Below are positions 960 to 15,844 of a DNA stretch of 21,490 nucleotides, piece after piece; the first letter of the stretch is position 1, and each line of letters starts with the position of its first letter. Origin of the DNA: a virus; IMG/VR virus record IMGVR_UViG_3300043429_000179, positions 1 through 21,490 of that record; one strand, given 5' to 3'. The position numbers and the translations under genes are program-made. The notes below the pieces were generated by a model. The model had not been told where the DNA came from. It made no database searches and saw nothing but the letters and a program-made list of their open reading frames with translations.

Positions 960-2162
960 TTATTCTTTGTCCAGATATATGGTCATGCCTGTCTGCGCCG
1001 TGATGCCCTTGCTCGTCACAACCCACAGCACAGGGCAGTCGAAGTCAGGCCACATATCTACGTAGCCATCCGTCAGCATGATGATGCACTCAGGGTTGAG
1101 ATGTTTATCCGTCAAGTGTCGCTTGACGCATGACGGACTTGTGCCCCCGCCACCTCTAGGTTTGGTCGAGGTCGCCAGCATGTCGAGGTTGGTCTCGTTA
1201 TACTCCTCATGGCTAGCCACTGCGCTGTCCCAATAGAGCAGGTCAATCTTCTCAGGCTGCACTTGCTTAGCCACAGCCACCACCTCGGTAAGCATGGCGG
1301 TAATCTCAGGCCCAGTGATGGAGCCCGATGTGTCCACGCCCACCACGATGTGTCCGACACGCTCGCTCTGCATTGAAGGGAGCAGGATGTCTTGCGCTAA
1401 GAATCTACGATTTGGTCTGCGCCATGTGGATGTGTCACGCCCACTGCACGTCGAGCGCACAAACTCGGCCAGCACCTCACGCCAGTTGATCTTGGGATTG
1501 AGTAGCGCACTAAGCTCACGCTCTAGGTTGCTACCTCCCTTGCCGTTCACCTTGCGATGCTCACGCTCACCTTGACGCAGGGCTTGGTCGATGTCCTTGG
1601 CTAGCTTGTCCTTGGCCTCTTGGGTCATGCCGTTGGCAGACTGCCAGTCATGCTCGTCGAAGCCTTGGCCTACGCCGCTAGCGCCACCCCCGTTCTGCTT
1701 CTCCTGTTTGAGGATGCGATAGATGCTGGGCACGTCCATGCCCTTGAACCTAGTGTCGCACACACCGATGCGCTGCCCGTCGATCTTGGGGAAGGCAATG
1801 GTCTGTTCGGCTGGGTCCATATCTACCAGCAGCAGGTTGATGCGGTGGTCACACGCCACGTTGGCAAGCTCTGCGTCCTCCTCGAACAGGCGCTTCCATG
1901 TGGTCAGGTCACGCCCGATCTTGTGCAGGTTCTCGTGCAGCACGACGAAGGCAAGCATCTTCTCGTCTAGTATCTCAACCAGTTTACGTCCGTATAGCTC
2001 GTTACAGCCATCAGTGCAGGCGGTTGGGATGTCATCGCGTAGCTCGGTCCTGCCCACCATCATGATGCCACGCCAGAATGCAAAGCGCGGGTCACGCAGC
2101 AGGTTAATCTTGACACGCTTTAGTTTGCGGTCAGCGGTGTCCACTTGGGTCATCATGTTCAT
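960..2162 (-). CDS. Metallopeptidase-like (HExxH) and von Willebrand factor A domain protein
   Basis: This is a 400-aa protein. The N-terminal half contains HENLH (residues 76-80), an HExxH zinc-peptidase signature set in a helix (AFVVLHENLHKIG). This is typical of the putative metallopeptidase domain that accompanies VWA-like domains in the DUF2201 family. The C-terminal half is VWA-like: the MIDAS motif DTSGSI at 277-282, a Thr within GGGGTSP at 337-343, and LTDG at 363-366. Together these form a complete D.S.S...T...D metal site. A Gly-rich linker lies near 158-166. The gene sits directly downstream of a MoxR-like AAA+ ATPase and a 78-aa protein, so it resembles the general MoxR/VWA partnership (for example RavA-ViaA), in which ATPase and VWA protein remodel client complexes. 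Proteolysis is inferred only from HExxH. Start ATG 2162 has GGGAG eight bases upstream. Confidence 0.85.
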   Translation of the reverse strand: MNMMTQVDTADRKLKRVKINLLRDPRFAFWRGIMMVGRTELRDDIPTACTDGCNELYGRKLVEILDEKMLAFVVLHENLHKIGRDLTTWKRLFEEDAELANVACDHRINLLLVDMDPAEQTIAFPKIDGQRIGVCDTRFKGMDVPSIYRILKQEKQNGGGASGVGQGFDEHDWQSANGMTQEAKDKLAKDIDQALRQGEREHRKVNGKGGSNLERELSALLNPKINWREVLAEFVRSTCSGRDTSTWRRPNRRFLAQDILLPSMQSERVGHIVVGVDTSGSITGPEITAMLTEVVAVAKQVQPEKIDLLYWDSAVASHEEYNETNLDMLATSTKPRGGGGTSPSCVKRHLTDKHLNPECIIMLTDGYVDMWPDFDCPVLWVVTSKGITAQTGMTIYLDKE

Positions 2163-2367
2163 GGTTTGCTCCCTCCATCATTTGGTTTAGTTCGTTGTAG
2201 TCCCCGGTCGTGAATTGAATGTAAGCATCTAGCTCATCCTTGGCCCACAACTTCTGAAGATAGAGAAGGCCATTCTCTGCTCTATATTTAATGTTGTAGG
2301 GCACACACCCCTCGATCCGGTGATACCTAAACCGCTCGTCAAGCTCTGTTACCTCAAGCACCTCCAT
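2131..2367 (-). CDS. 78-aa protein between the AAA+ ATPase and the VWA protein
   Basis: This 78-aa protein begins MEVLEVTELDERFRYHRIEG and ends in a His/Asp-rich tail. I do not recognise the family. The frame could be extended 30 bases to a TTG, but ATG 2367 is preferred because it forms a TGATG junction with the ATPase stop (2367-2369), a classic coupled arrangement. The 3' end overlaps the VWA gene by 32 bases. The position is conspicuous: it is sandwiched with overlaps on both sides between the two halves of a MoxR/VWA pair. It may therefore be an adaptor or substrate of that pair, which is inference from context only. Confidence 0.7.
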   Translation of the reverse strand: MEVLEVTELDERFRYHRIEGCVPYNIKYRAENGLLYLQKLWAKDELDAYIQFTTGDYNELNQMMEGANHEHDDPSGHR

Positions 2368-3434
2368 CACAGCAGGTCTTGGTTCTTGGTCAGCCAATCG
2401 CGGTAGCTTGCGTTGGCAAAGCCCACCTTCTGCTTGTTGGACTTGGCAAGAGCGAGGCAGAATGTCGCCTGCCAGTTGGTGTCGAACCGATCCAAATACT
2501 GCATGAACGGGTCGATGGTCTCAGCCTCCACACGCTGCACTGCACCAAAGACTAGCACAGCAGACGCACCGGGACTGTCCGGCACACGCGCAGACTTAGG
2601 GTTAGCGATGATGTCAGCCCATGCGGGAAGCTCGTTCTGATGCTCGATATACGCACCTAGATCACGCGCTGCTTGCTCACCGATTGTGCCGATCAAGGCT
2701 GCGGTCATGGCGTTGGAGCCAAGCTCACGCCTACGCTTCACGATATGCGATGCGCGGGAGAGCGAGCGAGGTGAGACGTAGACCTTAGACGGGCGGCGCG
2801 GGTTGTAGATGTAGTGATTGTCCTCTTGACCATCGTCTAAGTAGCTAGCGAATAGCTGCGGGACTTCCTTGACGAACGCAATGATCGCGCCATCCACGCC
2901 AGCGTCAACTGCGTAGTTGTGAATCCACTCGTCTGCGGTTGGCTTGCGCATACGCACAGTGGTCTGTCGATTGATGGTGTGCGCCTTGCGGTTGTCGCCC
3001 ACCCCGTCCGTTGTCAGGTTGCCAGTCGTAAACACGATAGAGCCCGGCGGCAGCGGGATGTCACCGAAGCGCGGGTTGGTCTCCTCTAACAGCGGGTGCA
3101 GCATGTTCTGCACGGGGGCTGCGCCCTTGGGAAACTCGTCGAGCATGATGATAACAGGCTCGCCAAGGTGCAGGTTGAACCGCTCGTTAGGGTAATAGCC
3201 AGTGGTCTTGCTGTCGTGCTTGATGACAGGCAACGCCACGTCACCGATGTCCAAGTTGGGCACGTCGATATAGGCCCAGCGGGTGATGCCCGTGCGCTTG
3301 CTGATATGCTGAATGCCAGATGATTTGCCGATACCCATCTCGCCCTCAACGTGAACACGCAGTTCCGGGCAGAAAGAGATCAGGTCGAACGTCTCGTTGA
3401 AGCTCAGCGTCGAGCCAAAGTTAATCATAGTCAT
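2367..3434 (-). CDS. MoxR-like AAA+ ATPase
   Basis: This 355-aa protein has the AAA+ core motifs in order: Walker A GEMGIGKS at residues 31-38, Walker B VIIMLDEF at 94-101, sensor 1 TTGN at 136-139, and arginine-finger candidates at R156 and R161 (NRQTTVRMR). The extended insertion pattern and the downstream VWA gene place it with the MoxR/RavA/CobS-like ATPases, which act as oligomeric chaperones on partner complexes. The frame is open to a GTG at 3461, but ATG 3434 is chosen because AAGGAGC ends about 7 bases before it. A minus-strand promoter (3512-3540) and a palindromic operator-like site (3459-3478) lie upstream, so the three-gene ATPase/VWA unit can be controlled separately from the small genes before it. 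CobS-like chelatase is an alternative, but no cobalamin gene is nearby. Confidence 0.87.
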   Translation of the reverse strand: MTMINFGSTLSFNETFDLISFCPELRVHVEGEMGIGKSSGIQHISKRTGITRWAYIDVPNLDIGDVALPVIKHDSKTTGYYPNERFNLHLGEPVIIMLDEFPKGAAPVQNMLHPLLEETNPRFGDIPLPPGSIVFTTGNLTTDGVGDNRKAHTINRQTTVRMRKPTADEWIHNYAVDAGVDGAIIAFVKEVPQLFASYLDDGQEDNHYIYNPRRPSKVYVSPRSLSRASHIVKRRRELGSNAMTAALIGTIGEQAARDLGAYIEHQNELPAWADIIANPKSARVPDSPGASAVLVFGAVQRVEAETIDPFMQYLDRFDTNWQATFCLALAKSNKQKVGFANASYRDWLTKNQDLL

Positions 3435-3458
3435 GTCAGTTGCTCCTTGTGAGGTATC

Positions 3459-3478
3459 CACCTCAACTGGTTGAGATA
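3459..3478. promoter_or_regulatory. 20-bp palindromic operator-like site, copy 2
   Basis: The sequence is CACCTCAACTGGTTGAGATA. The inner 14 bases, CTCAACTGGTTGAG, are symmetric except at the central pair; the outer left arm has drifted from the family consensus. It lies between the promoter at 3512-3540 and the AAA+ gene, roughly +27 to +46 in the predicted transcript. Repression by roadblock is possible. Confidence 0.65.
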
Positions 3479-4580: not shown

Positions 4581-4919
4581 GGCTGCTCGCTTGGCGCGTA
4601 GCTCTGCGTGGTATGCGTCCCCATGATCTTGGATAAACCTGCGGAGCCAATGGCAGGGCGCGTGTTCTGTCGCCTCGTGCGGATGTGCGTAGGTGTAGTG
4701 GTGCGATGTGGTCGGGGAATATTTGTCCTCATTGGAATACCACGTCTCATTGGCGGCATCCCACACGAACAGCGGCCAGTGTTCGCCGTAGCTATAGACG
4801 ACATACAGACCAGATGCCGTCCACCTTGCGTAAAGCTGCTTATTGGAGTTGTCGAAGGGAACGCAGTTGCGCACGTATTTGCGGCAGTCGCGGTTGGTTG
4901 TCTTGACGATCTTGCTCAT
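4578..4919 (-). CDS. Conserved phage hypothetical protein (113 aa)
   Basis: This is a 113-aa protein rich in aromatic and histidine residues. It has a YVRNCVPFDNSNKQLYA segment, then LYVVYSYGEHWPLFVWD, then a region with T.SHH..AHPH (residues about 71-80). I recognise this pattern (a 'YSYGEHWPLFVWD ... W..N.DKYS.TTS.H..H..P' protein) from many unrelated phages, where it is of unknown function. Start ATG 4919 has GGGAGCAAACC upstream, the leader shared by its neighbours. The His/aromatic content suggests a compact fold possibly binding a ligand or metal, which is inference. It lies between two palindromic operator-like sites. Confidence 0.72.
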   Translation of the reverse strand: MSKIVKTTNRDCRKYVRNCVPFDNSNKQLYARWTASGLYVVYSYGEHWPLFVWDAANETWYSNEDKYSPTTSHHYTYAHPHEATEHAPCHWLRRFIQDHGDAYHAELRAKRAA

Positions 4920-4931
4920 TGGTTTGCTCCC

Positions 4932-5147
4932 TTAGTTGATGTTTTGAAGGATGCCGCTCACGTCACGCAACGTGCGGGCGTAGAAATAGGGGATGGTGTT
5001 GTCAGTCACGACAACCTGTGCGGCGCGATAGCCACGATACGAGTCGTGCTTCTGGATGATGTATTGGTTGCCGCTGCGGTCCCACCCGACATACTGGTAA
5101 AACTTGGTGGGCAATGCGCGTTCGATGTTGATGTAGCTTCTAGCCAT
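4932..5147 (-). CDS. First gene of the small-protein operon (71 aa)
   Basis: It begins MARSYINIERALPTKFYQYV and is rich in Tyr and Arg, ending DVSGILQNIN. ATG 5147 is chosen over a GTG at 5162 because GGAG lies nine bases before 5147. It is the promoter-proximal gene: the extended -10 promoter at 5221-5249 and operator copy 4 (5164-5183) lie directly upstream. I do not recognise the family, and no motif or membrane segment is seen. Being first behind a strong regulated promoter suggests an immediate-early product. Confidence 0.65.
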   Translation of the reverse strand: MARSYINIERALPTKFYQYVGWDRSGNQYIIQKHDSYRGYRAAQVVVTDNTIPYFYARTLRDVSGILQNIN

Positions 5148-5163
5148 CGTTTCAGTCTCCACT

Positions 5164-5183
5164 TATCTTAACTGGTTGAGCTA
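5164..5183. promoter_or_regulatory. 20-bp palindromic operator-like site, copy 4
   Basis: The sequence is TATCTTAACTGGTTGAGCTA, identical to copy 3. It lies between the promoter at 5221-5249 and the first gene of the leftward operon, about +31 to +50 of the predicted transcript. With copy 5 it flanks the promoter, a layout compatible with looping or roadblock repression. Confidence 0.75.
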
Positions 5184-5220
5184 AGTTTCCGTCGCGGGCG
5201 TGGTTCGCCCCGACCTCTTC

Positions 5221-5249
5221 TTAATAGCAGCGTAGGTGGACAATGTCAA
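5221..5249 (-). promoter_or_regulatory. Strong extended -10 promoter of the leftward operon
   Basis: On the minus strand it reads TTGACA, a 17-base spacer, then TATTAA, with an extended -10 TGC immediately before the -10 hexamer. This is the best promoter in the window. Transcription would start near 5214 and enter the 71-aa gene. The flanking sequence CTTGACATTGT recurs at about 6674, upstream of the 249-aa gene. Confidence 0.7.
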
Positions 5250-5267
5250 GTGCTGGGTGGTGTGGGT

Positions 5268-5287
5268 TAGCTCAACCGGTTGAGATA
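5268..5287. promoter_or_regulatory. 20-bp palindromic operator-like site, copy 5
   Basis: The sequence is TAGCTCAACCGGTTGAGATA, symmetric at all but one pair and the closest to the consensus. Its centre is 31 bp upstream of the centre of the -35 box at 5244-5249 (about -63). That is a class-I activator-like position. Confidence 0.75.
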
Positions 5288-5310
5288 GGCAGGGCTGATG
5301 CGAGGCTGGG

Positions 5311-5647
5311 GCTTTGTAAGAAAAGGGGACGTAAGAATGTAAGGGCGAAAAACCAAAATCTTACAAAAGATCTTACAAAACCAAAAGCACGGAAATCTGC
5401 GGGGTTGAGGTAGGAAAAATGGTGTAATGTAAGAATGTAAGAAAAATATTTATATTATATATAGAGGGGGGCGGGAAATCTGACGGATTGGTTAATCGGC
5501 GAGAAGGCCCGAACAGACTGTCTAGTTTGGATATAACCTGAAAAAAAATCTTACATTCTTACAATGCCCGGAAAACTGCCAAAAATTTTCTTACAATAGG
5601 CCAGATTCCCTTACGCAGAAATCTTACAAAGCCCAAAAAATCTTACG
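5311..5647. other. Iteron-like array with AT-rich core: candidate replication origin
   Basis: This is a gene-free stretch. Heptamers TGTAAGA (plus orientation) or TCTTACA (inverted), including one-mismatch forms, occur at 5315, 5330, 5338, 5359, 5371, 5428, 5436, 5549, 5557, 5589, 5610, 5622 and 5641. Several are spaced exactly 8 or 12 bp apart. The left cluster is mostly in one orientation and the right cluster entirely in the opposite one. Between them lies an almost pure A/T run (5442-5464). Repeated initiator boxes flanking an AT-rich unwinding element is the usual layout of phage and plasmid origins. No replication initiator gene is identified in the window, so the call is structural. 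A multi-site regulator array is the alternative. Confidence 0.5.
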
Positions 5648-5667
5648 CTTGACAGACCGCCCGCCCG

Positions 5668-5694
5668 TTTGATAAGCACTACGTGCTTATCAAA
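5668..5694. repeat. Perfect 12-bp-arm inverted repeat
   Basis: The arms TTTGATAAGCAC and GTGCTTATCAAA are separated by three bases (TAC). No run of T follows on either strand beyond the arms, so it does not look like a terminator. It lies at the right edge of the heptamer array and may be part of the origin or a protein-binding site. Confidence 0.7.
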
Positions 5695-5788
5695 AACTTG
5701 GCTGGCCCAAATGCCCGAAGGCCGACCGCCCCTCTAAACTATCATAAACTATCACGGCGTGATCTTTTCGGTCGCGGTGCGCGGGCAC

Positions 5789-5817
5789 AAAAAAGCCCGG
5801 GCTGGTTAGGCCCGGGC
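5789..5817 (-). terminator. Rho-independent terminator of the 249-aa gene
   Basis: On the minus strand two GCCCGGGC arms (5810-5817 and 5795-5802) enclose a 7-base loop, followed directly by TTTTTT. It lies 26 bases beyond the stop codon. It isolates the 249-aa gene from the origin-like region. Confidence 0.9.
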
Positions 5818-5842
5818 GGTTAGGTTGTTAGTGCTGGCTGGC

Positions 5843-6592
5843 TCAATCGTCTGCGAAGGCATCCGGGTTGCTAGCCACCAGCGCGGCGATTGCTCGCAGG
5901 TTGGACATGGTGGCAGCGCAAGCGGTCGCCTCGCCCTTGGCGATTAGCTTTGCCACCGCAACAGCAGCGCGGGTGATTTCGCTAGGCGTTGCGGCGCGGC
6001 CTTCGCTCTCATTCTGTGGCGCGGCGCGGCTGGTGCCAGCCTCGCCCTTGGCGGCCTTGACTAGCGCGCTAGTCGATTTGGCAGCAGCGGCCAGCAATTC
6101 ATCGCCTTCTGCCCCGCCTTCTAGCACCAGCTTGTCATCCACCAGCTTGGCGGTGATCGCGCGGCTCAATAGCGCGTTAGCGGTTGGCAAAGCCTTGCCT
6201 GTCACCAAAGCCCATGCGGCCTTGGCACCAGCCGATTGATCGCCGGGAACGCCAAACAAGGCTGGCAGCACAGTCGCGCGGAACGCCGATTGCTTTGTGC
6301 GGTTGTCCGAACCGTCTTCATTCTTGAAGCCAGACAGATAGTCTAGCAAGCTAGCCTTGGCGCTTTCCGTCACGTTGCCAGCGCGGTCTGTAACGTCAAA
6401 GGCAATGGGCAGGTTCATCATCTCGCCCGTGAGGCCAGCGATAATCATATCCAGCGCGGTTGCGCGTCCATCATTAGCGGCTTTGACTTGCTCACCAGCG
6501 ATAGCAGCAGCGCGGCCACCAGCGATCAGCAGATCAGCCGGGGCGGCCTTGGCACGGGCTTTATTGATGAAGGCGGTTGTCTTGTTAGTCAT
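5843..6592 (-). CDS. Unrecognised Ala-rich 249-aa protein
   Basis: This 249-aa protein is dominated by Ala, Lys and Leu helices. The N-terminus is MTNKTTAFINKARAKAAPAD; a more varied central part covers residues 55-150; the C-terminus ends NLRAIAALVASNPDAFADD. I do not recognise a family and see no Walker, zinc or HTH motif, nor signal or membrane segment. ATG 6592 is supported by AAAGGA about nine bases upstream. It stands alone with its own strong terminator, and a TTGACA element (6676-6681) plus operator copy 6 lie upstream, so it forms a single-gene unit next to the candidate origin. Candidates by position are a replication, regulatory or single-strand-binding-type factor; none is supported by motifs. 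Confidence 0.75.
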   Translation of the reverse strand: MTNKTTAFINKARAKAAPADLLIAGGRAAAIAGEQVKAANDGRATALDMIIAGLTGEMMNLPIAFDVTDRAGNVTESAKASLLDYLSGFKNEDGSDNRTKQSAFRATVLPALFGVPGDQSAGAKAAWALVTGKALPTANALLSRAITAKLVDDKLVLEGGAEGDELLAAAAKSTSALVKAAKGEAGTSRAAPQNESEGRAATPSEITRAAVAVAKLIAKGEATACAATMSNLRAIAALVASNPDAFADD

Positions 6593-6675
6593 GATGCAAT
6601 GTCCTTTGCTATGTTCCGGGCGGCGCGGCGTGATTGCCTCGCCCCCAAAGCCGGTGTGCCCGATCGGGTGAACAA

Positions 6676-6681
6676 TGTCAA
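6676..6681 (-). promoter_or_regulatory. TTGACA -35 element upstream of the 249-aa gene
   Basis: On the minus strand CTTGACATTGT is identical over 11 bases to the leftward operon promoter. No good -10 hexamer is found at 16-18 bases spacing (the 17-base position is CACACC), so this may be an activator-dependent or non-canonical promoter. The call is partial. Confidence 0.4.
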
Positions 6682-6689
6682 GCCGGGCC

Positions 6690-6709
6690 TATCTCAACCG
6701 GTTAAGCTA
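6690..6709. promoter_or_regulatory. 20-bp palindromic operator-like site, copy 6
   Basis: The sequence is TATCTCAACCGGTTAAGCTA. Its centre is 21 bp upstream of the centre of the TTGACA at 6676-6681, exactly 10 bp (about one helical turn) closer than the equivalent spacing for copy 5. Confidence 0.75.
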
Positions 6710-6978
6710 ACGCGCTAGCAATGCCGGGGCGGGGCGCGGTGCAAGCGGTGACTAGGGCGGGGGGTCAAAAAGCCTTGCAAGCCTTACCCTACCCGGGGGC
6801 CACCCCCCTAGGACAGCTTGGGACTCTGGCATCCTTATATACATAATAATATGCACAATCAGTGACGCGAATTTTAAAAAACCCTGTCACTATACAAGAC
6901 GACACCCCCCTCCCCCCTCGTTTTTCTAGGCAGCATCTGGTTGGCGCGCTCACAGGAAGACCCCCTAAAGGGGACCCA
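6710..6978. other. Intergenic region without a convincing gene
   Basis: The stretch contains C-rich tracts, an AT-rich patch (about 6834-6852) and a pair of inverted AGTGAC/GTCACT half-sites at 6861-6866 and 6886-6891. A 60-codon GTG-started frame (6862-7044) lacks a ribosome binding site and has low-complexity composition, so I do not call it. Nothing else is recognisable. Confidence 0.5.
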
Positions 6979-7009
6979 TTGACACCTTGCCTAGCCCCAC
7001 TACTATATT
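6979..7009 (+). promoter_or_regulatory. Candidate rightward (late) promoter
   Basis: TTGACA at 6979-6984 is followed by an A/T-rich -10 candidate in ACTATATT (7002-7009); hexamer choices give 17-19 bases spacing. It is the best plus-strand promoter before the terminase genes. Its transcript would meet the terminator at 7049-7087 after only about 70 nt. Confidence 0.5.
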
Positions 7010-7048
7010 TTTTGCTTTCTCTTTGGGTGAGCGAACCGATCTAACTTA

Positions 7049-7087
7049 GGGGTGTCAGGGGTCGCTAACTGGCACCCCTTTTCTTTT
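7049..7087 (+). terminator. Strong rho-independent terminator ahead of the late genes
   Basis: Arms GGGGTGTCAG (7049-7058) and CTGGCACCCC (7069-7078) pair over 10 bp with one G-U, with a 10-base loop, followed by TTTTCTTTT. It sits between the candidate late promoter and the terminase genes, so it may act as an attenuator or mark the end of a short RNA. Confidence 0.8.
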
Positions 7088-7103
7088 ACCACATTTGTGG
7101 TAA
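7086..7103. repeat. TTACCACA..TGTGGTAA palindrome, copy A
   Basis: Arms TTACCACA and TGTGGTAA are separated by two T. The left arm overlaps the last bases of the terminator's T tract. The same core TACCACA-NN-TGTGGTA recurs at 7993-8008. Confidence 0.6.
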
Positions 7104-7127
7104 GCTGGGGTCCTCCTGAGTAAAAGT

Positions 7128-7202
7128 GGGGGTGGCGTAGTTCAGAGGTCAGAACGGTCGCTTCGGTGTCAATGTCGTTGGTTCGAATCCAACCCCACCC
7201 CC
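7128..7202 (+). tRNA. Degenerate tRNA-like sequence
   Basis: Several tRNA hallmarks are present. The 5' run GGGGGTGG (7128-7135) pairs over 8 bp with CCACCCCC (7195-7202). The D arm is GTTC-AGAGGTCA-GAAC (7140-7155). The T arm is perfect: GTTGG-TTCGAAT-CCAAC (7177-7193). The segment that should be the anticodon arm (7156-7176) does not fold into a 5-bp stem and 7-base loop and is one or two bases short, so no anticodon can be assigned (GTC or GTG triplets are present but not properly framed). CCA is not encoded. It could be a decayed tRNA, a tRNA-like structure, or a tRNA-derived attachment sequence. It is followed within 65 bases by the terminase small subunit gene. Confidence 0.45.
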
Positions 7203-7266
7203 TTTACATTCCCCCCACTAAGCTGTTACACAGCAGGTCTGCTCCCTCAAACCGGACGCTGCGCAC

Positions 7267-7890
7267 ATGCCAGTAGTAAAAGTCGAGCCTACCGACGAAT
7301 ATCCCGTTCCATTTAGCTTGGACACGGAAGAACCGGATAATTATCTCGACCAAGTTAGCATTGCAGCGCGTACAGCGGAGCTATTGGAAGAGCTTGGTGC
7401 GCCCCTTGAGGTCGATATTGAAGACCTTGAGAAGGAAAAGAAGCTCATTAAAGCCGCACTCAAACAGCAGGACAAGGGCGCTTTGAAGTCATATCCGGCT
7501 GCCATGGCGGCATCTGCGTTCATTAAGAACTATGGGCACAATCTGGCGCACGACGTGATGGAAGTGCGGGCCGCGCTCACCAATAAGCTGCTAGAAATCG
7601 CAAACTGCGGGGATACTAAATACGAGCTTCGTGCCCTCGAACTGCTGGGTAAGCACTCAGATATTGGCTTGTTCACCGAGCGCAGCGAGATCACCATCAA
7701 CTATAAGTCGCCCGAGGCGTTGGAAAGCGCCATCAAGGAGCGAGTTAAGCGGTTACTGAACGCCGAAGTCATTGATATGCCCACCACTGGCATCGACCTC
7801 AACGAAGAACTGGGCGTTTACCGCCCTGAAGAGGACGATGAGGAAGCCCCCGATGGGGACGAAGAAGGGGGCGACGATGAGCAAGCCTGA
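7267..7890 (+). CDS. Terminase small subunit
   Basis: This 207-aa protein recognises phage DNA and recruits the large terminase. The family signature is the region at residues about 117-146 (TKYELRALELLGKHSDIGLF followed by TERSEITIN), where small terminases end their helical core with a K..LELLGKH..LF pattern. Before it lie two helical segments (residues 30-110), consistent with the DNA-binding and oligomerisation parts. The C-terminal 25 residues are very acidic (EEDDEEAPDGDEEGG), unlike many relatives. The ATG at 7267 lacks a clear Shine-Dalgarno. It is upstream of the 89-aa gene (14-base overlap) and the large terminase gene, the usual order. Confidence 0.85.
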   Translation: MPVVKVEPTDEYPVPFSLDTEEPDNYLDQVSIAARTAELLEELGAPLEVDIEDLEKEKKLIKAALKQQDKGALKSYPAAMAASAFIKNYGHNLAHDVMEVRAALTNKLLEIANCGDTKYELRALELLGKHSDIGLFTERSEITINYKSPEALESAIKERVKRLLNAEVIDMPTTGIDLNEELGVYRPEEDDEEAPDGDEEGGDDEQA

Positions 7891-8146
7891 ACTCAAAGTA
7901 GTGGGAGAAATCACCCCACCCGACTATAAAGACCCGGTCAAGATGCTGCGGAACATCGCAGATAACATCGAGGCGGGCGATTACGGCGATATTACCACAA
8001 TTGTGGTAGCTACATGGGGCGACAACGGAGTTGATACCTTCGGGGGCGGTAAGGACAGTGATATGTTCCACTGCTCTTACCTTTTTGGCGTAGCCCAGAC
8101 TCGGTTACAGAACATCCCGCTAGAGGGCGAGAGGTGGACTGACTAA
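7877..8146 (+). CDS. Conserved 89-aa protein between the terminase genes
   Basis: It begins MSKPELKVVGEITPPDYKDP and continues through MLRNIADNIEAGDYGDITTI. The frame is open further upstream, but the ATG at 7877 is preferred because the extension would lie wholly inside the small terminase gene. It overlaps that gene by 14 bases and the large terminase by one (TAATG). Small proteins with an 'M.L..IAD.IEAG.YGD' segment occur in this position in several phages; their role is unknown. The TACCACA/TGTGGTA palindrome at 7993-8008 lies inside it. Confidence 0.72.
   Translation: MSKPELKVVGEITPPDYKDPVKMLRNIADNIEAGDYGDITTIVVATWGDNGVDTFGGGKDSDMFHCSYLFGVAQTRLQNIPLEGERWTD
7993..8008. repeat. TACCACAATTGTGGTA palindrome, copy B
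   Basis: A perfect 16-bp palindrome inside the 89-aa gene. It shares the TACCACA-NN-TGTGGTA core with copy A (7087-7102). The two copies may be sites for one regulator, but the coding context also allows chance. Confidence 0.5.
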
Positions 8147-9690
8147 TGGGACGCCCCAACCAGCAGCTAATCAACGAGATATCGCTCGACGATATCCCCA
8201 AAATCCTCCCAAAACTGCCAGTTCGGGAGCAGGAGAAGCTGTTAGCCGAGTTGGAGAAGCTCCACGAGCTAAAAATAACCCAATTGGCTAAGGATAAGTT
8301 CTTAGGATTCGTGAAAGAGGTCTGGCCTACGTTTATTGCGGGGAGGCACCATGCGAAAATGGCTGATGCGTTCGAGCGGGTGGCTCGTGGCGAGTGCAAG
8401 CGCCTTATTATTAACATGCCTCCTCGTCATACTAAGTCAGAATTTGCCTCCTACCTCCTCCCTGCTTGGTTCCTTGGCAAATTTCCTCACAAAAAGATCA
8501 TTCAGTGTTCCCACACCGCCGAACTGGCCGTCGGATTTGGCCGTAAGGTGCGTAACTTGGTCGATACCGAGATTTACCACAAGATTTTCCCTGATCTGAG
8601 CCTCGCATCGGACTCGAAAGCCGCTGGTCGCTGGAATACCAGCAAGGGCGGGGACTATTTCGCTATCGGTATCGGGGGTGCTGTGACCGGTAAGGGCGCT
8701 GACGTGCTCATTATTGACGACCCGCACTCGGAACAGGAAGCCGCGTTGGCGGAAGTTAACCCTGATATCTACGATAAGACCTACGAGTGGTACACATCAG
8801 GCCCTCGTCAGCGCCTCCAGCCGGGTGGGGCTATTGTTATCGTGATGACGCGCTGGTCAAAACGCGATCTGACGGGGCAAATCCTGAAAGATGCAGCGGC
8901 CAACGACTCCATCGGGGAGTGGGAAGTCATTGAATTTCCAGCCATTTTGCCGTCAAACAAGCCGCTCTGGCCTGAGTTCTGGGAGCTAAGCGAGCTTGAG
9001 AAGGTTAAACGCGACGTCCCTAACTCCAAGTGGATGGCGCAGTATCAGCAGAACCCGGTCTCTGAGAGCGCGGCTATCGTCAAGCGTGAGTGGTGGCAGA
9101 AGTGGGACAGCGACAGGCCACCCCAGTGCGACTTCATCCTGCAAGCATGGGATACGGCCTTCGAGAAGACGTCACGCGCAGACTACACGGCATGTACTAC
9201 GTGGGGCGTGTTCTACCATGACGACGACACAGGCGTGCCTCAGGCCAATATTATCCTGCTCAATGCCTTCAGGGACCGCATGGAGTTCCCAGAGCTAAAG
9301 CGGTGTGCGGTTGAAGAATACCGCGAGTGGGAGCCAGACGGGGTTATTATCGAGAAAAAGGCGTCAGGTGCGCCACTCATCTACGAGCTTCGCTCCATGG
9401 GTATCCCAGTTCAGGAGTTCACTCCCACGCGTGGCAACGACAAGATCAGCAGGTTGAACGCCGTCGCTGACATATTCGCCTCCGGAAGAGTATGGGCACC
9501 GCCCGCTCGCTGGGCGGAAGAGGTCATTGATGAGGTGGCGGAGTTTCCAGCGGGGGCTCATGATGACTATGTCGATACCGTCTCTATGGCTATGCACAGG
9601 TTCCGTCGTGGGGGCTACGTAACAACAAACCTCGACGAACCCGATGATATCATATACTTTAAGAGCCGTAAGCAACAGGGGTATTATTAA
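8146..9690 (+). CDS. terL: Terminase large subunit (packaging ATPase/nuclease)
   Basis: This 514-aa protein powers DNA translocation into the prohead and cuts concatemers. The ATPase domain has a Walker A-like MPPRHTKSE (residues 91-99), Walker B VLIIDD (187-192) and the coupling motif TRW (235-237). The nuclease domain (residues about 325-485) has an RNase H-like acidic set: D336 in QAWDTAF, E403 in IIEKKASG, and D473/D474 in AHDDYVD. The length is normal for the family. The start at 8146 overlaps the upstream stop as TAATG, and its own stop overlaps the portal start in the same way, so all three are translationally coupled. The form of the Walker A (PPRHTKS) fits the terminase group of P22/Mu-like and podovirus phages. 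Confidence 0.96.
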   Translation: MGRPNQQLINEISLDDIPKILPKLPVREQEKLLAELEKLHELKITQLAKDKFLGFVKEVWPTFIAGRHHAKMADAFERVARGECKRLIINMPPRHTKSEFASYLLPAWFLGKFPHKKIIQCSHTAELAVGFGRKVRNLVDTEIYHKIFPDLSLASDSKAAGRWNTSKGGDYFAIGIGGAVTGKGADVLIIDDPHSEQEAALAEVNPDIYDKTYEWYTSGPRQRLQPGGAIVIVMTRWSKRDLTGQILKDAAANDSIGEWEVIEFPAILPSNKPLWPEFWELSELEKVKRDVPNSKWMAQYQQNPVSESAAIVKREWWQKWDSDRPPQCDFILQAWDTAFEKTSRADYTACTTWGVFYHDDDTGVPQANIILLNAFRDRMEFPELKRCAVEEYREWEPDGVIIEKKASGAPLIYELRSMGIPVQEFTPTRGNDKISRLNAVADIFASGRVWAPPARWAEEVIDEVAEFPAGAHDDYVDTVSMAMHRFRRGGYVTTNLDEPDDIIYFKSRKQQGYY

Positions 9691-12200
9691 TGGCCGTAGA
9701 TAAAGCTCTTAACCAAGCTCCGCTTGGGCTCGATGCCACACTTGCCACAGGCGTAGAGCCGGGGGTGAATATTGAACCTGATCTTGAGATCGAGATCGAG
9801 GACCCGGAAGAAGTTAAGCTTCGCATGGACGGGCTTGAGATTGAGATTGAGCCCGGCGAAGACGAGGAAGAGAGCGAGTTCAACGAGAACCTCGCGGAAA
9901 TCCTCGATAACGGCCAGTTGGCTGAGATTGCTGGTGATCTCATCGGTGACTTTGACGACGACATCGCCTCACGCCGTGACTGGATACAGACCTACGTCGA
10001 TGGCCTAGAGTTGCTCGGCATGAAGGTCGAGGACCGGACTGAGCCGTGGCCCGGTGCATGTGGCGTCTACCACCCGTTGCTTACAGAAGCGGTGGTTAAG
10101 TTCCAAGCTGAGACCATGATGGAGACTTTCCCGGCCCAAGGCCCGGTGAAGACCCAGATTATTGGTCGTGAAACCCCCCAAAAGCGCGATGCGGCTGTGC
10201 GCGTGCAAGATGACATGAATTATCAGTTGACCGAGCGGATGACCGAGTATCGCCCGGAACATGAGCGGATGTTGTGGGGGTTGGGCCTCGCAGGCAATGC
10301 GTTCAAGAAGGTGTACTACGATCCTTCGCTCGGTCGTCAGACGGCGATGTACGCTCCTGCTGATGACGTGGTTGTGCCCTACGGCGCGTCGAATATTGAA
10401 ACCGCAGAACGCGTTACGCACGTAATGAGGAAGACGCCTAACGAGCTACGCAAGCTCCAGCGCGACGGCTTCTATCGTGATATTGATCTGCCTGAGCCTG
10501 ACGGCACTCTTGACGATGTTGAGCAGAAAATCGCAGAAAAGCTTGGTTTCCGGGCTACTAGCGATGATCGCTACAAGCTGCTCGAGATGCAGGTTGACCT
10601 CATCATTGAGGACGACAAGTTTCGTGACGAGGACGATGAGGGGATTGCACTCCCATACATCGTGACCATCGAGAAGAACTCTCAGGAAATCCTTGCAATC
10701 CGTCGCAATTGGCAGCCCGATGACAAACTTAAGCAAAAGCGCAATCACTTCGTTCATTACGCGTATGTGCCGGGCTTTGGCTTCTACGCTTTTGGCCTTA
10801 TTCACCTTATCGGTGCTTTTGCTAAGTCTGGTACCAGCATTATTCGTCAGCTTGTCGATGCTGGTACTCTTTCTAACCTCCCGGGTGGCTTCAAGACTAA
10901 GGGTCTGAGGGTCAAGGGCGACGACACGCCCATTAGCCCGGCTGAATGGCGCGATGTAGACGTAGCCAGTGGCACCATGCGTGATAACATCATGCCGTTG
11001 CCCTATAAGGAGCCGTCAGGCGTCCTGTATCAGCTTCTGGGCACGATTGTGGAAGAAGGTCGCAAGATGGCCGGTATGGCCGACTTGCAGGTCTCTGACA
11101 TGTCTGCAAACGCCCCTGTGGGCACGACGCTCGCTATCCTTGAGCGCACTCTCAAGACAATGTCGGCTGTTCAGGCACGCATTCACTATTCGATGCGCCA
11201 AGAGTTCAAACTCCTGAAGCACATCATCGCCGATTATACGCCAGAAGAGTATAGCTACGAGCCGGAAGAAGGCAGCCGCAAGGCCAAGAAGTCGGACTAC
11301 GACAACGTCGATGTGTTGCCGGTCTCGGACCCCAACGCTGCGACGATGGCACAGAAAATTGTGCAATATCAAGCAGTTATCCAGATGGCGCAGGCTGCCC
11401 CGCAGATTTATGATCTGCCGTACCTGCACCGCCAGATGTTGGAAATCCTTGGGATTAAGAATGCCCAGAAGCTTGTACCGCTGAAGGACGACGAGGACCG
11501 CAAGCCGCGCGATCCGATCAGCGAGAACATGGACATTATCAACAATAAGCCGGTCAAGGCGTTCATGTACCAAGACCATGAAGCCCATATCACGGTTCAC
11601 ATGACAGCTATGCAGGACCCCAAAATCCAGCAAATCCTCGGTCAGAACCCCAACGCGCAGCAGATGATGGCCGCAATGCAGGCGCATATTGCTGAGCACT
11701 TGGCGTTTGAATACCGTCGTCAGATCGAAGAACAGGCCGGTGTGCCGTTGCCTCCGCCAGACTCGGATATGGACGAGAACACCGAGCTTCAGATTTCGCG
11801 TCTGGCTGCCGCCGCAGGGCAGCAGTTGCTCCAGAAAGATCAGGCCGAAGCTGCACAACAGCAGGCCCAGCAGATGGCCCAAGACCCCATCGTTCAGATG
11901 CAGCAGGCCGAGCTACAGCTTAAAGCCCAAGAGCTTCAGCTTAAGGCTCAGAAACTTCAGATCGAGGCTGCCGACAAGGCAGACCGTGTCGAGCTTGAGC
12001 AAGCGCGCATCGCTGCACAAAAAGAAATCGCTGGCCTTCAGGTTGGGGCCAAGATTGCAACGGACAAAGCTATGTTGTCCGCCAAGCAGCAAGAAGCTGG
12101 GCTTCGCATTGGCGTCGAAATCGCCCGTGACGCTACCCAGATGGATACAGCTAAAGAGGAAACCCCTGCTTCTGAAGCCAAGCCTAAGGAGAACGAATGA
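9690..12200 (+). CDS. Portal protein
   Basis: This 836-aa protein is the dodecameric portal vertex through which DNA passes. The N-terminus (1-85) carries acidic near-repeats (DLEIEIEDPEE, GLEIEIEPGEDEE). The portal core (about 95-590) includes PGACGVYHPLLTEAV, RMLWGLGLAGNAFKKVYYDP and VPYGASNIETAERVTHVMRK, recognisable from large podovirus-type portals. Residues about 720-800 form a long Gln/Ala-rich coiled coil with 7-residue repeats (LQLKAQE LQLKAQK LQIEAAD). The large size compared with about 500-725 aa for many portals reflects these terminal extensions, the C-terminal one perhaps resembling the P22 barrel. It follows terL immediately, the standard position. Specific subfamily placement is not certain. 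Confidence 0.93.
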   Translation: MAVDKALNQAPLGLDATLATGVEPGVNIEPDLEIEIEDPEEVKLRMDGLEIEIEPGEDEEESEFNENLAEILDNGQLAEIAGDLIGDFDDDIASRRDWIQTYVDGLELLGMKVEDRTEPWPGACGVYHPLLTEAVVKFQAETMMETFPAQGPVKTQIIGRETPQKRDAAVRVQDDMNYQLTERMTEYRPEHERMLWGLGLAGNAFKKVYYDPSLGRQTAMYAPADDVVVPYGASNIETAERVTHVMRKTPNELRKLQRDGFYRDIDLPEPDGTLDDVEQKIAEKLGFRATSDDRYKLLEMQVDLIIEDDKFRDEDDEGIALPYIVTIEKNSQEILAIRRNWQPDDKLKQKRNHFVHYAYVPGFGFYAFGLIHLIGAFAKSGTSIIRQLVDAGTLSNLPGGFKTKGLRVKGDDTPISPAEWRDVDVASGTMRDNIMPLPYKEPSGVLYQLLGTIVEEGRKMAGMADLQVSDMSANAPVGTTLAILERTLKTMSAVQARIHYSMRQEFKLLKHIIADYTPEEYSYEPEEGSRKAKKSDYDNVDVLPVSDPNAATMAQKIVQYQAVIQMAQAAPQIYDLPYLHRQMLEILGIKNAQKLVPLKDDEDRKPRDPISENMDIINNKPVKAFMYQDHEAHITVHMTAMQDPKIQQILGQNPNAQQMMAAMQAHIAEHLAFEYRRQIEEQAGVPLPPPDSDMDENTELQISRLAAAAGQQLLQKDQAEAAQQQAQQMAQDPIVQMQQAELQLKAQELQLKAQKLQIEAADKADRVELEQARIAAQKEIAGLQVGAKIATDKAMLSAKQQEAGLRIGVEIARDATQMDTAKEETPASEAKPKENE

Positions 12201-14302: not shown

Positions 14303-14920
14303 ATGGCATATCCTTCCGTTACAAGCCCTTACGGGCTTATTCCGATCAATCTGATCGGCGGGCAGGTTTTTGCCGGTTCCACTCGTCAACTTCCCATCGC
14401 AACCAACTCTTCGACGGCCATTTTCTATGGTGACGTTGTGAAGCTGCTTGCTGGTGGTACGGTTGGCAAGGACACCGGCACTGACTCGGCCACGCCGGTT
14501 GGTGTTTTCCTTGGCTGCACCTACACCGATCCGGTGTATGGTCCGACCTATCGTCAGTACTACCCGGGTACCACGAACATCACCGACATCATGGCATACG
14601 TCCTTGATGATCCGGATGCCCTGTTCAAGGTTGCCGTGTGCGCTGGCACAAACTCGAACACCGTCAGCTACGTCACGCAGGCCGCTGTCGGTTCCAACCT
14701 CAAGTTGGCGAACGGTGCGAACAACACCGGTTCTACCACCACAGGTAACTCCAAGGTCGGTGTAGACTCGACCGAGGGCCAAACCTCGACGTGGCCGATC
14801 CGTGTTGTGGACGTTGTTCCTGAAACCGCAATTGCTGGCAACCCCGGTTCTTACACCGAAGTTGTCGTCAAGTGGAATCAGGGTACGCATTCGTACCTCA
14901 ACCCCACTGGCCTCGCATAA
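14303..14920 (+). CDS. Putative capsid decoration/structural protein
   Basis: This 205-aa protein is rich in Gly, Thr, Ser and Val and is predicted to be almost all beta-strand. The N-terminus is MAYPSVTSPYGLIPINLIGG, which I have seen in proteins encoded just upstream of gpT-type capsid genes in several phages. Cement/decoration proteins typically lie next to the major capsid gene and have this composition. SD is TAGGAG at about 14288. No enzymatic motif is visible. The structural assignment is by context and composition. Confidence 0.7.
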   Translation: MAYPSVTSPYGLIPINLIGGQVFAGSTRQLPIATNSSTAIFYGDVVKLLAGGTVGKDTGTDSATPVGVFLGCTYTDPVYGPTYRQYYPGTTNITDIMAYVLDDPDALFKVAVCAGTNSNTVSYVTQAAVGSNLKLANGANNTGSTTTGNSKVGVDSTEGQTSTWPIRVVDVVPETAIAGNPGSYTEVVVKWNQGTHSYLNPTGLA

Positions 14921-14932
14921 GGAGACTGAACA

Positions 14933-15844
14933 ATGGCAATTTCACGCGCACAACTCCTGAAGGAGCTTTTGCCCGGTCTGAACGCCCTGTTCGGTCTGGA
15001 ATACGCCCGCTATGGCGAAGAGCACAAAGAGATTTTCGAAACGGAAACCTCGGAGCGTTCGTTCGAAGAAGAAACCAAGCTGTCCGGCTTCTCGGCTGCT
15101 CCGGTTAAGAACGAAGGTTCGGCTATCGCTTACGACAACGCTCAGGAAGTCTTCACGGCTCGCTACAACCATGAGACGATTGCCCTCGGGTTCTCGCTCA
15201 CGGAAGAAGCCATCGAAGACAACCTGTATGACAGCCTCTCGGCTCGTTATACCAAGGCGCTGGCTCGTGCCATGGCTTACACCAAGCAGACCAAGGCTGC
15301 TGCTATCCTGAACAACGGTTTTGACACGGACTACCCCGGTGGTGACGGTCAGCCGCTCTTCTCGGATGCTCACCCGCTGGTCTCCGGTGGCACCAACTCG
15401 AACATTCCGTCGGTTGCTACCGACCTGAACGAAACGGCGCTTGAAAACGCTGTTATTCAGATCGCTGCGTGGACGGACGAACGTGGCCTGCTGATCGCAG
15501 CTAAGCCGCGCAAGTTGGTTATCCCGCCGTCACTCCAGTTCGTTGCGACCCGCTTGCTCGAAACCGAGCTTCGCGTTTCGACGGCTGACAACGACATCAA
15601 CGCCATCAAGAGCAACGGCTCGATCCCGGAAGGTTACACCGTTAACCACTTCCTGACCGACACCGATGCTTGGTTCTTGACGACGGATGTGCCGAATGGC
15701 CTGAAGCACTTTGTTCGTACTCCGCTTGCGCAGAGCATGGACGGTGACTTCGACACCGGTAACGTCCGTTACAAGGCCCGTGAGCGTTATTCGTTCGGCT
15801 GGTCTGACCCGCTGGGCATGTACGGTTCCGTAGGCGCTGCCTAA
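14933..15844 (+). CDS. Major capsid protein (Mu gpT-like)
   Basis: This 303-aa protein carries patterns of the Mu-like major head subunit (gpT) family: ALFGLEYARYGEEHKEIFET near the N-terminus, FTARYNHETIALGFSLTEEA.. EDNLYD (about 74-102), PLFSDAHPLVSGGT (138-151), RKLVIPPSL (about 195-203), and RYKARERYSFGWSDPLGMYGS at the C-terminus (about 280-300). The HK97 fold is known for the family. The gene lies after the scaffold and before a strong terminator, as expected. No separate protease is seen, so maturation cleavage is not implied. ATG 14933 follows AAGGAG. The Ala/Leu/Glu-rich codon usage looks optimised for high expression. Confidence 0.93.
   Translation: MAISRAQLLKELLPGLNALFGLEYARYGEEHKEIFETETSERSFEEETKLSGFSAAPVKNEGSAIAYDNAQEVFTARYNHETIALGFSLTEEAIEDNLYDSLSARYTKALARAMAYTKQTKAAAILNNGFDTDYPGGDGQPLFSDAHPLVSGGTNSNIPSVATDLNETALENAVIQIAAWTDERGLLIAAKPRKLVIPPSLQFVATRLLETELRVSTADNDINAIKSNGSIPEGYTVNHFLTDTDAWFLTTDVPNGLKHFVRTPLAQSMDGDFDTGNVRYKARERYSFGWSDPLGMYGSVGAA

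Follow-up and report, generated by a model that had tools for sequence, protein, structure and literature searches.

A heptamer array that probably serves an uncultured tailed phage as an iteron replication origin

A crowd of TGTAAGA heptamers around an A/T-rich core occupies a non-coding gap in an uncultured tailed phage, which raises the question of whether this array is a replication origin, as originally predicted from the sequence, or serves transcription, packaging or partition. The locus lies in a virus record of 21,490 bases, the whole of which was analysed and is referred to here as the window; it encodes TerL (8146–9690), a portal protein (9690–12200) and a major head protein (14933–15844), and its left arm encodes a MoxR-like ATPase and a DUF2201/VWA protein. 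The array is highly likely to be an iteron replication origin, bound by a self-loading primase-helicase of the SaPI Rep type. In our best reading it is an iteron origin of the SaPI Rep kind, in a variant with the origin unlinked from the initiator gene.

The array and its surroundings

The array consists of nine exact TGTAAGA/TCTTACA heptamers (starting at 5315, 5428 and 5436 on the plus strand and at 5359, 5371, 5549, 5557, 5589 and 5622 on the minus strand) and four near copies (5330 and 5338, plus; 5609 and 5641, minus; Table 1), in agreement with the prediction of at least a dozen heptamers with mismatched forms included. The predicted start spacings are also present, that of 8 bp three times (5330/5338, 5428/5436 and 5549/5557) and that of 12 bp once (5359/5371). 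The claim of inverted orientation around the core holds for the right side, where all six copies are on the minus strand, and not for the left side, which is mixed (five plus and two minus copies). The gap 5163–5842 contains nine exact copies, as compared with a mean of 0.06 and a maximum of 2 in 5000 dinucleotide shuffles, which never yielded more than five copies of any 7-mer; the whole window contains 11 (1.56 expected), the two outside the array being at 14849 and 17544. Chance as the source of the array is excluded, the density being beyond it as predicted, and the label 'iteron-like' is apt.

Table 1. Features of the array gap (positions in the window)
Feature	Position	Strand	Basis or remark
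Whole iteron array, nine exact and four near TGTAAGA, both strands	5315–5647		Word count
Iteron TGTAAGA	5315–5321	+	Exact match
Left outer doublet, CGTAAGA and TGTAAGG, near copies 8 bp apart	5330–5344	+	
TGTAAGA pair, 12 bp apart	5359–5377	-	Exact matches
Left core-flanking doublet TGTAAGAATGTAAGA, 8 bp apart	5428–5442	+	Perfect
A/T run of 22 bases, candidate melting site	5442–5463		Longest A/T run in the window
Core part conserved with L144 and L169, TTAATCGGCGAGA ... GACTGTCTAGTTT	5492–5528	+	Alignment
Right core-flanking doublet, inverse of 5428–5442	5549–5563	-	Perfect
Iteron TGTAAGA	5589–5595	-	Exact match
Degenerate iteron, two mismatches	5609–5615	-	
Iteron TGTAAGA	5622–5628	-	Exact match
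Iteron CGTAAGA, one mismatch	5641–5647	-	
Palindrome, 12-nt arms and 3-nt centre, adjoining the array	5668–5694		Perfect

The core between the two facing doublets starts with the A/T run, which is present as predicted and is one base shorter than the 23 bases given for it. The array gap (680 bases) is flanked by minus-strand ORFs at 4932–5162 and 5843–6592. It had been described as the largest non-coding gap, at the divergence point. The gap at 6593–7266 (674 bases), which holds a tRNA-Pro gene, is about as large, and the array lies between two minus-strand genes. Plus-strand genes begin at 7267, so that the true divergence is one gene to the right of the array gap.

Several minor observations concern these surroundings. 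The tRNA-Pro (CGG) gene is at 7130–7202; an Rfam element in the array gap was considered and rejected, the tRNA being the sole match at gathering score within 4900–7300. Just upstream of the leftward gene there is an imperfect 21-nt inverted repeat (5164–5184 and 5267–5287, 90%) with CAACCGGTTGAG-like words, which by its sequence looks like a candidate operator pair of a regulator. A pattern scan of IMG/VR found no relative of the 249-aa ORF beside the array; the gene at the same position in L144 (6261–7118) matches a PHROG of anti-restriction proteins. In the left arm, the MoxR-like AAA ATPase and the adjoining DUF2201 metallopeptidase/VWA protein span 960–3461, and relatives of the ATPase are found in many phage contigs. 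The ORF at 509–925 has a weak match to the C-terminal domain of RNA polymerase alpha (PF03118, E 7e-5, just under the cut-off).

Arrays at the same place in relatives

Arrays were sought de novo in relatives of the window, with an array defined as any 7-mer that occurs six or more times within 450 bases, with two or more copies on each strand. The loci tested (n = 51) were TerL-oriented, extended at least 4.2 kb upstream of TerL and differed from one another in the first 600 nt of TerL. A two-strand array was present between −4200 and −1500 of TerL in 33 of the 51 loci, and elsewhere in the same loci there was one such array in 615,613 bp. These 33 loci include the window and six from the 15-mer word scan described below (L144, L150, L154, L164, L200 and L230); minus these seven, the array is found in 26 of 44. 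The strict 7-mer search detected no array in 18 of the 51 loci. In five whole contigs without a strict array, allowing for mismatches yielded A/T-rich words where an array was expected, of which three look array-like and two are weak (G099 and G107); otherwise the whole contigs of relatives gave the same picture as the TerL loci. The arrays of the relatives are located 1.6–3.7 kb upstream of TerL. Their words include TGTAAGA, AATGTTA, ATTGTTA, ATTGTTC, TGTTATG, TGTTATA, TTGTAAC, TTGTTCC and TGTAGAC, as well as TGTTAGA. The search for the same array in related phages, which had been proposed as a check, thus recovered an array at the same place with words that differ.

In the alignment of the window with L144, the iteron columns are 89% identical and the spacers 63% (p 2e-6). 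Cultured phages gave no nucleotide match to window positions 5200–5760. The TGTAAGA array is absent from the fetched stretches of the cultured TerL relatives HTVC023P, HTVC027P, 023Pt_psg01, DSL-LC04, Pag-Yong1 and CRP-901, and from the covered record parts of Pseudomonas phage Rollin and Rhizobium phage TM29, two cultured relatives by the DUF927 initiator. The place of the array and often its layout are kept as the word changes, and therefore the co-evolution of initiator and iterons can be studied directly in this group.

Association with DUF927 and VapE helicases

IMG/VR was scanned for the exact 15-mer doublet, which occurs at no fewer than 119 loci; among the matches listed, 33 loci have a dense array, and the array records belong to unrelated phage groups. 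Two protein scans of relatives were also made, one of them the source of the new helicases discussed below, and their counts likewise apply among the matches listed. For comparison of gene content, 31 of the 35 distinct non-window array contigs listed (L184, L211, L215 and L227 were left out) were set against 50 control contigs that lack an array and contain the 15-mer by chance, taken from the 86 non-array 15-mer loci listed, among those of at least 15 kb. DUF927 (PF06048) was found in 11 and VapE (PF05272) in five of the 31 array records listed, never both together, as compared with 0 and 1 of the 50 controls; either helicase is present in 16/31 versus 1/50. On contigs of at least 30 kb, a helicase accompanies the array in 13 of 17 cases and is found in none of 25 controls (Fisher p 9e-8, with related records not being independent). 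The array contigs of this length with neither helicase are G001 (44.9 kb) and G029, G030 and G031 (38–63 kb, 5–7 array copies). In addition, DUF927 is encoded in 22 of 31 long records of TerL/MoxR relatives and in G004, the genome of L144.

The helicase of the window group is a DUF927 protein of about 960 aa. A search for an initiator gene near the array had originally been suggested as a check; no DUF927 gene is present in the 21.5-kb window. In six relatives of the window group (G002, G003, G004, G006, G011 and G012), the DUF927 gene lies 16–23 kb from the array along the contig as given, and the array is not directly downstream of the rep gene. Other phage groups do have the origin-next-to-rep arrangement: of the ten helicase-bearing array records of non-window groups, nine have the array no more than 0.5 kb from the helicase gene, G021 being the exception. 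Two VapE phages carry a second TGTAAGA cluster (G022:34764–35048 and G026:23249–23519), 25–28 kb from the one that adjoins the helicase.

We inspected ten cultured phages that encode a relative of DUF927 or VapE, in each of which a gap of 222–421 bases follows the 3' end of the helicase gene. All ten gaps hold a 6-mer with a count reached by at most one of 1000 shuffles, and a significant 6-mer array was found in none of the ten coding stretches of the same size. The words in these gaps differ from TGTAAGA. The notion of TGTAAGA as the mark of one initiator family was rejected, because the word was the search bait and the DUF927 and VapE phages use many words.

These data bear on the alternative that the heptamers are an operator array, at which a phage transcription regulator would control leftward and rightward promoters around the gap. 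The array does lie between early-type leftward genes and rightward structural genes, and two promoter-like matches overlap it (5538–5582), though shuffles give 0.8. However, arrays of the same plan adjoin the 3' end of the helicase gene in other phages, the enrichment of two helicase families in the array records would not be expected of an operator, and at least 12 sites around an A/T core are more than usual operators have; we consider this alternative unlikely. A packaging (pac) site, at which the small terminase subunit would bind repeats close to the terminase genes, would account for the distance from TerL noted above in the array-bearing relatives of the window. It is very improbable, as the arrays of VapE and other DUF927 phages adjoin the helicase gene instead and it is not obvious what an A/T core would do in packaging. 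A centromere-like partition or incompatibility locus devoid of origin function is scarcely credible: iteron clusters double as inc or parS-like sites in plasmids and in the VapE records G022 and G026 a further array lies a long way from the helicase, but no ParA/ParB-like gene was recognized among the window proteins scanned (a subset of the ORFs), and the core with its facing doublets fits melting better.

The reading of the array as an origin is the best supported one, on comparative evidence that was not available to the original prediction: it is supported by arrays with changing words at the same place in relatives, by their co-occurrence with, and elsewhere adjacency to, genes of self-loading AAA+ helicases of the DUF927 and VapE families, and by the C-terminus of the relatives' DUF927 helicase, which resembles the winged helix of SaPI Rep. 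The N-terminal part of this protein matches primase profiles of PHROGs. In profile comparison it aligns with Cch-type DUF927 over most of its length (probability 99.8), and by sequence both the window-group and the Cch-type proteins match the SaPIbov1 replication initiator (8tch) and Cch (5dgk); the DUF927 and VapE families are not alignable with each other. The C-terminal 188 residues were modelled from 43 sequences (mean pLDDT 80, pTM 0.60), with the order strand-helix-helix-strand-strand that is typical of winged helices. The best structural match of the model is SaPIbov1 Rep (8tch_B; Z 9.7, 106 aligned residues, rmsd 3.0), followed by Cch (5dgk_A; Z 8.9, 93 aligned, rmsd 3.0) and the pCW3 relaxosome protein TcpK (5vfy, Z 8.5; 5vfx is its complex with oriT DNA); Foldseek placed the same entries at the top with E no better than 0.003. 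As modelled, the C-terminal domain is a winged helix like that of SaPIbov1 Rep. According to the portion of PMC7581432 available, SaPI Rep uses its C-terminal domain to recognize iterons downstream of its gene, and Cch is related to SaPIbov1 Rep via DUF927.

Proposed mechanism, layout and known systems

In the mechanism that we propose, the phage's own DUF927 initiator, of about 960 aa and encoded outside the fragment, would use its C-terminal winged helix to bind the TGTAAGA iterons. A pair of helicase assemblies, formed on the facing doublets (5428–5442 and 5549–5563), would melt the A/T run (5442–5463), whereupon the helicases would encircle the DNA and travel outwards, together with the fused primase, giving a bidirectional start. 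GC skew, the check originally suggested, gave a mixed answer: the array is 1–4 kb from the minimum in three genomes (G003, G011 and G012) and nearer the maximum in G002 and G006, which form one lineage.

Compared with a SaPI-type origin, the window has the multiple short iterons and the A/T-rich segment within the array, and the relatives have the DUF927 AAA+ initiator and, in the model, a C-terminal DNA-binding domain of the same fold as in SaPIbov1 Rep. Unlike SaPIbov1, a staphylococcal pathogenicity island, this is a phage and not a satellite, its group's initiator is fused to a primase-like N-terminus and the initiator gene of the relatives is remote from the array. Cch of SCCmec shares DUF927 and matches the relatives' initiator by sequence and fold, whereas Cch2 is another helicase family and the repeat words of SCCmec differ; for Cch2, the C-terminal domain is reported to bind repeats (PMC7581432, in the portion available), and the SCCmec origin is itself putative. 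The VapE-type (7pds-like) modules of phiFL4A, LWP01 and 2638A likewise have an iteron gap of ∼300 bases beside an AAA+ helicase gene, and phiFL4A has the same facing-doublet plan as the window; they differ from the window group in the helicase family, the words and the position of the array beside the gene. At the origins of P4 alpha and of iteron plasmids, an initiator with helicase and primase activity binds short repeats, an initiator of a similar type, whereas the families and words differ. The window contains no DnaA box (TTWTNCACA), a feature of DnaA-dependent iteron plasmid origins. The probable origin appears ordinary in kind and, as far as the literature was searched, new in this phage group; no published description of the array was recognized in the portions available of the literature searched, which included PMC7581432, PMC7145576, PMC5862659, PMC10061031 and PMC9894130. 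It offers a concrete and testable candidate origin for uncultured tailed phages of a widespread group and links it to a family of initiators known mostly from mobile elements of staphylococci.

It is also possible, although we are inclined to doubt it, that the origins of DUF927 and VapE phages share a geometry that is independent of the word and that the word changes in step with a residue in the C-terminal wing. The geometry consists of iteron doublets 7–10 bp apart that face each other across a core of 95–125 bp (start-to-start spacings). With thresholds that were set after the spacings had been seen, both doublets are present in four of the ten cultured phages and at least one in six, versus expectations of 0.002 and 0.067 under random placement. 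Among 24 loci with the TGTAAGA word, a set selected for one doublet from which the same or near-same genomes L170, L134, L205, L181 and L184 had been dropped beforehand, the counts are six and 17; for 15 window-group loci with other words, they are three and seven. The geometry is absent in LWP01, Fontainebleau, AC844P1 and phiRg507, in seven of the 24 TGTAAGA loci and in eight of the 15 other-word loci.

Genomes that use TGTAAGA are interspersed in the helicase tree with those that use TGTTA-type words. The wing residue just before the conserved Lys-Arg (residue 913 of the G012 protein) is Val, Thr or Ser with TGTAAG words and Asn (once Tyr) with TGTTA words, and it tied first as the word-separating column among 756 variable columns (this test left out G006, a near-copy of G002, and the genomes of uncertain word G088, G104, G084, G099, G107 and G101). 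A prediction for new genomes was recorded before their residues and words were read. Among the matches listed, G121 (Asn, TGTTAGA) and G126–G128 (Val, TGTAAG) fit, G116 (Val) is mixed and G122/G125 (Thr, then Lys-Gln; TATTAGA) fail, so that by lineage two fit, one is mixed and one fails. Because the G122/G125 lineage failed, the wing code is kept as a hypothesis. If the shared geometry is true, the sequence alone could be enough to locate the origins of a great many uncultured phages, the layout rule allowing origin calls in metagenomic data, and the locus would gain further interest if both rule and code hold.

A separate observation concerns the palindrome that adjoins the array, which is not followed by a T run. 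Of 31 loci, 19 have a palindrome with arms of 9 or more and a centre of 6 or less within the 330 bases that follow the array on its right, compared with ∼2 predicted from the background of 0.16 per kb; their arms vary among the relatives and the pairing is retained.
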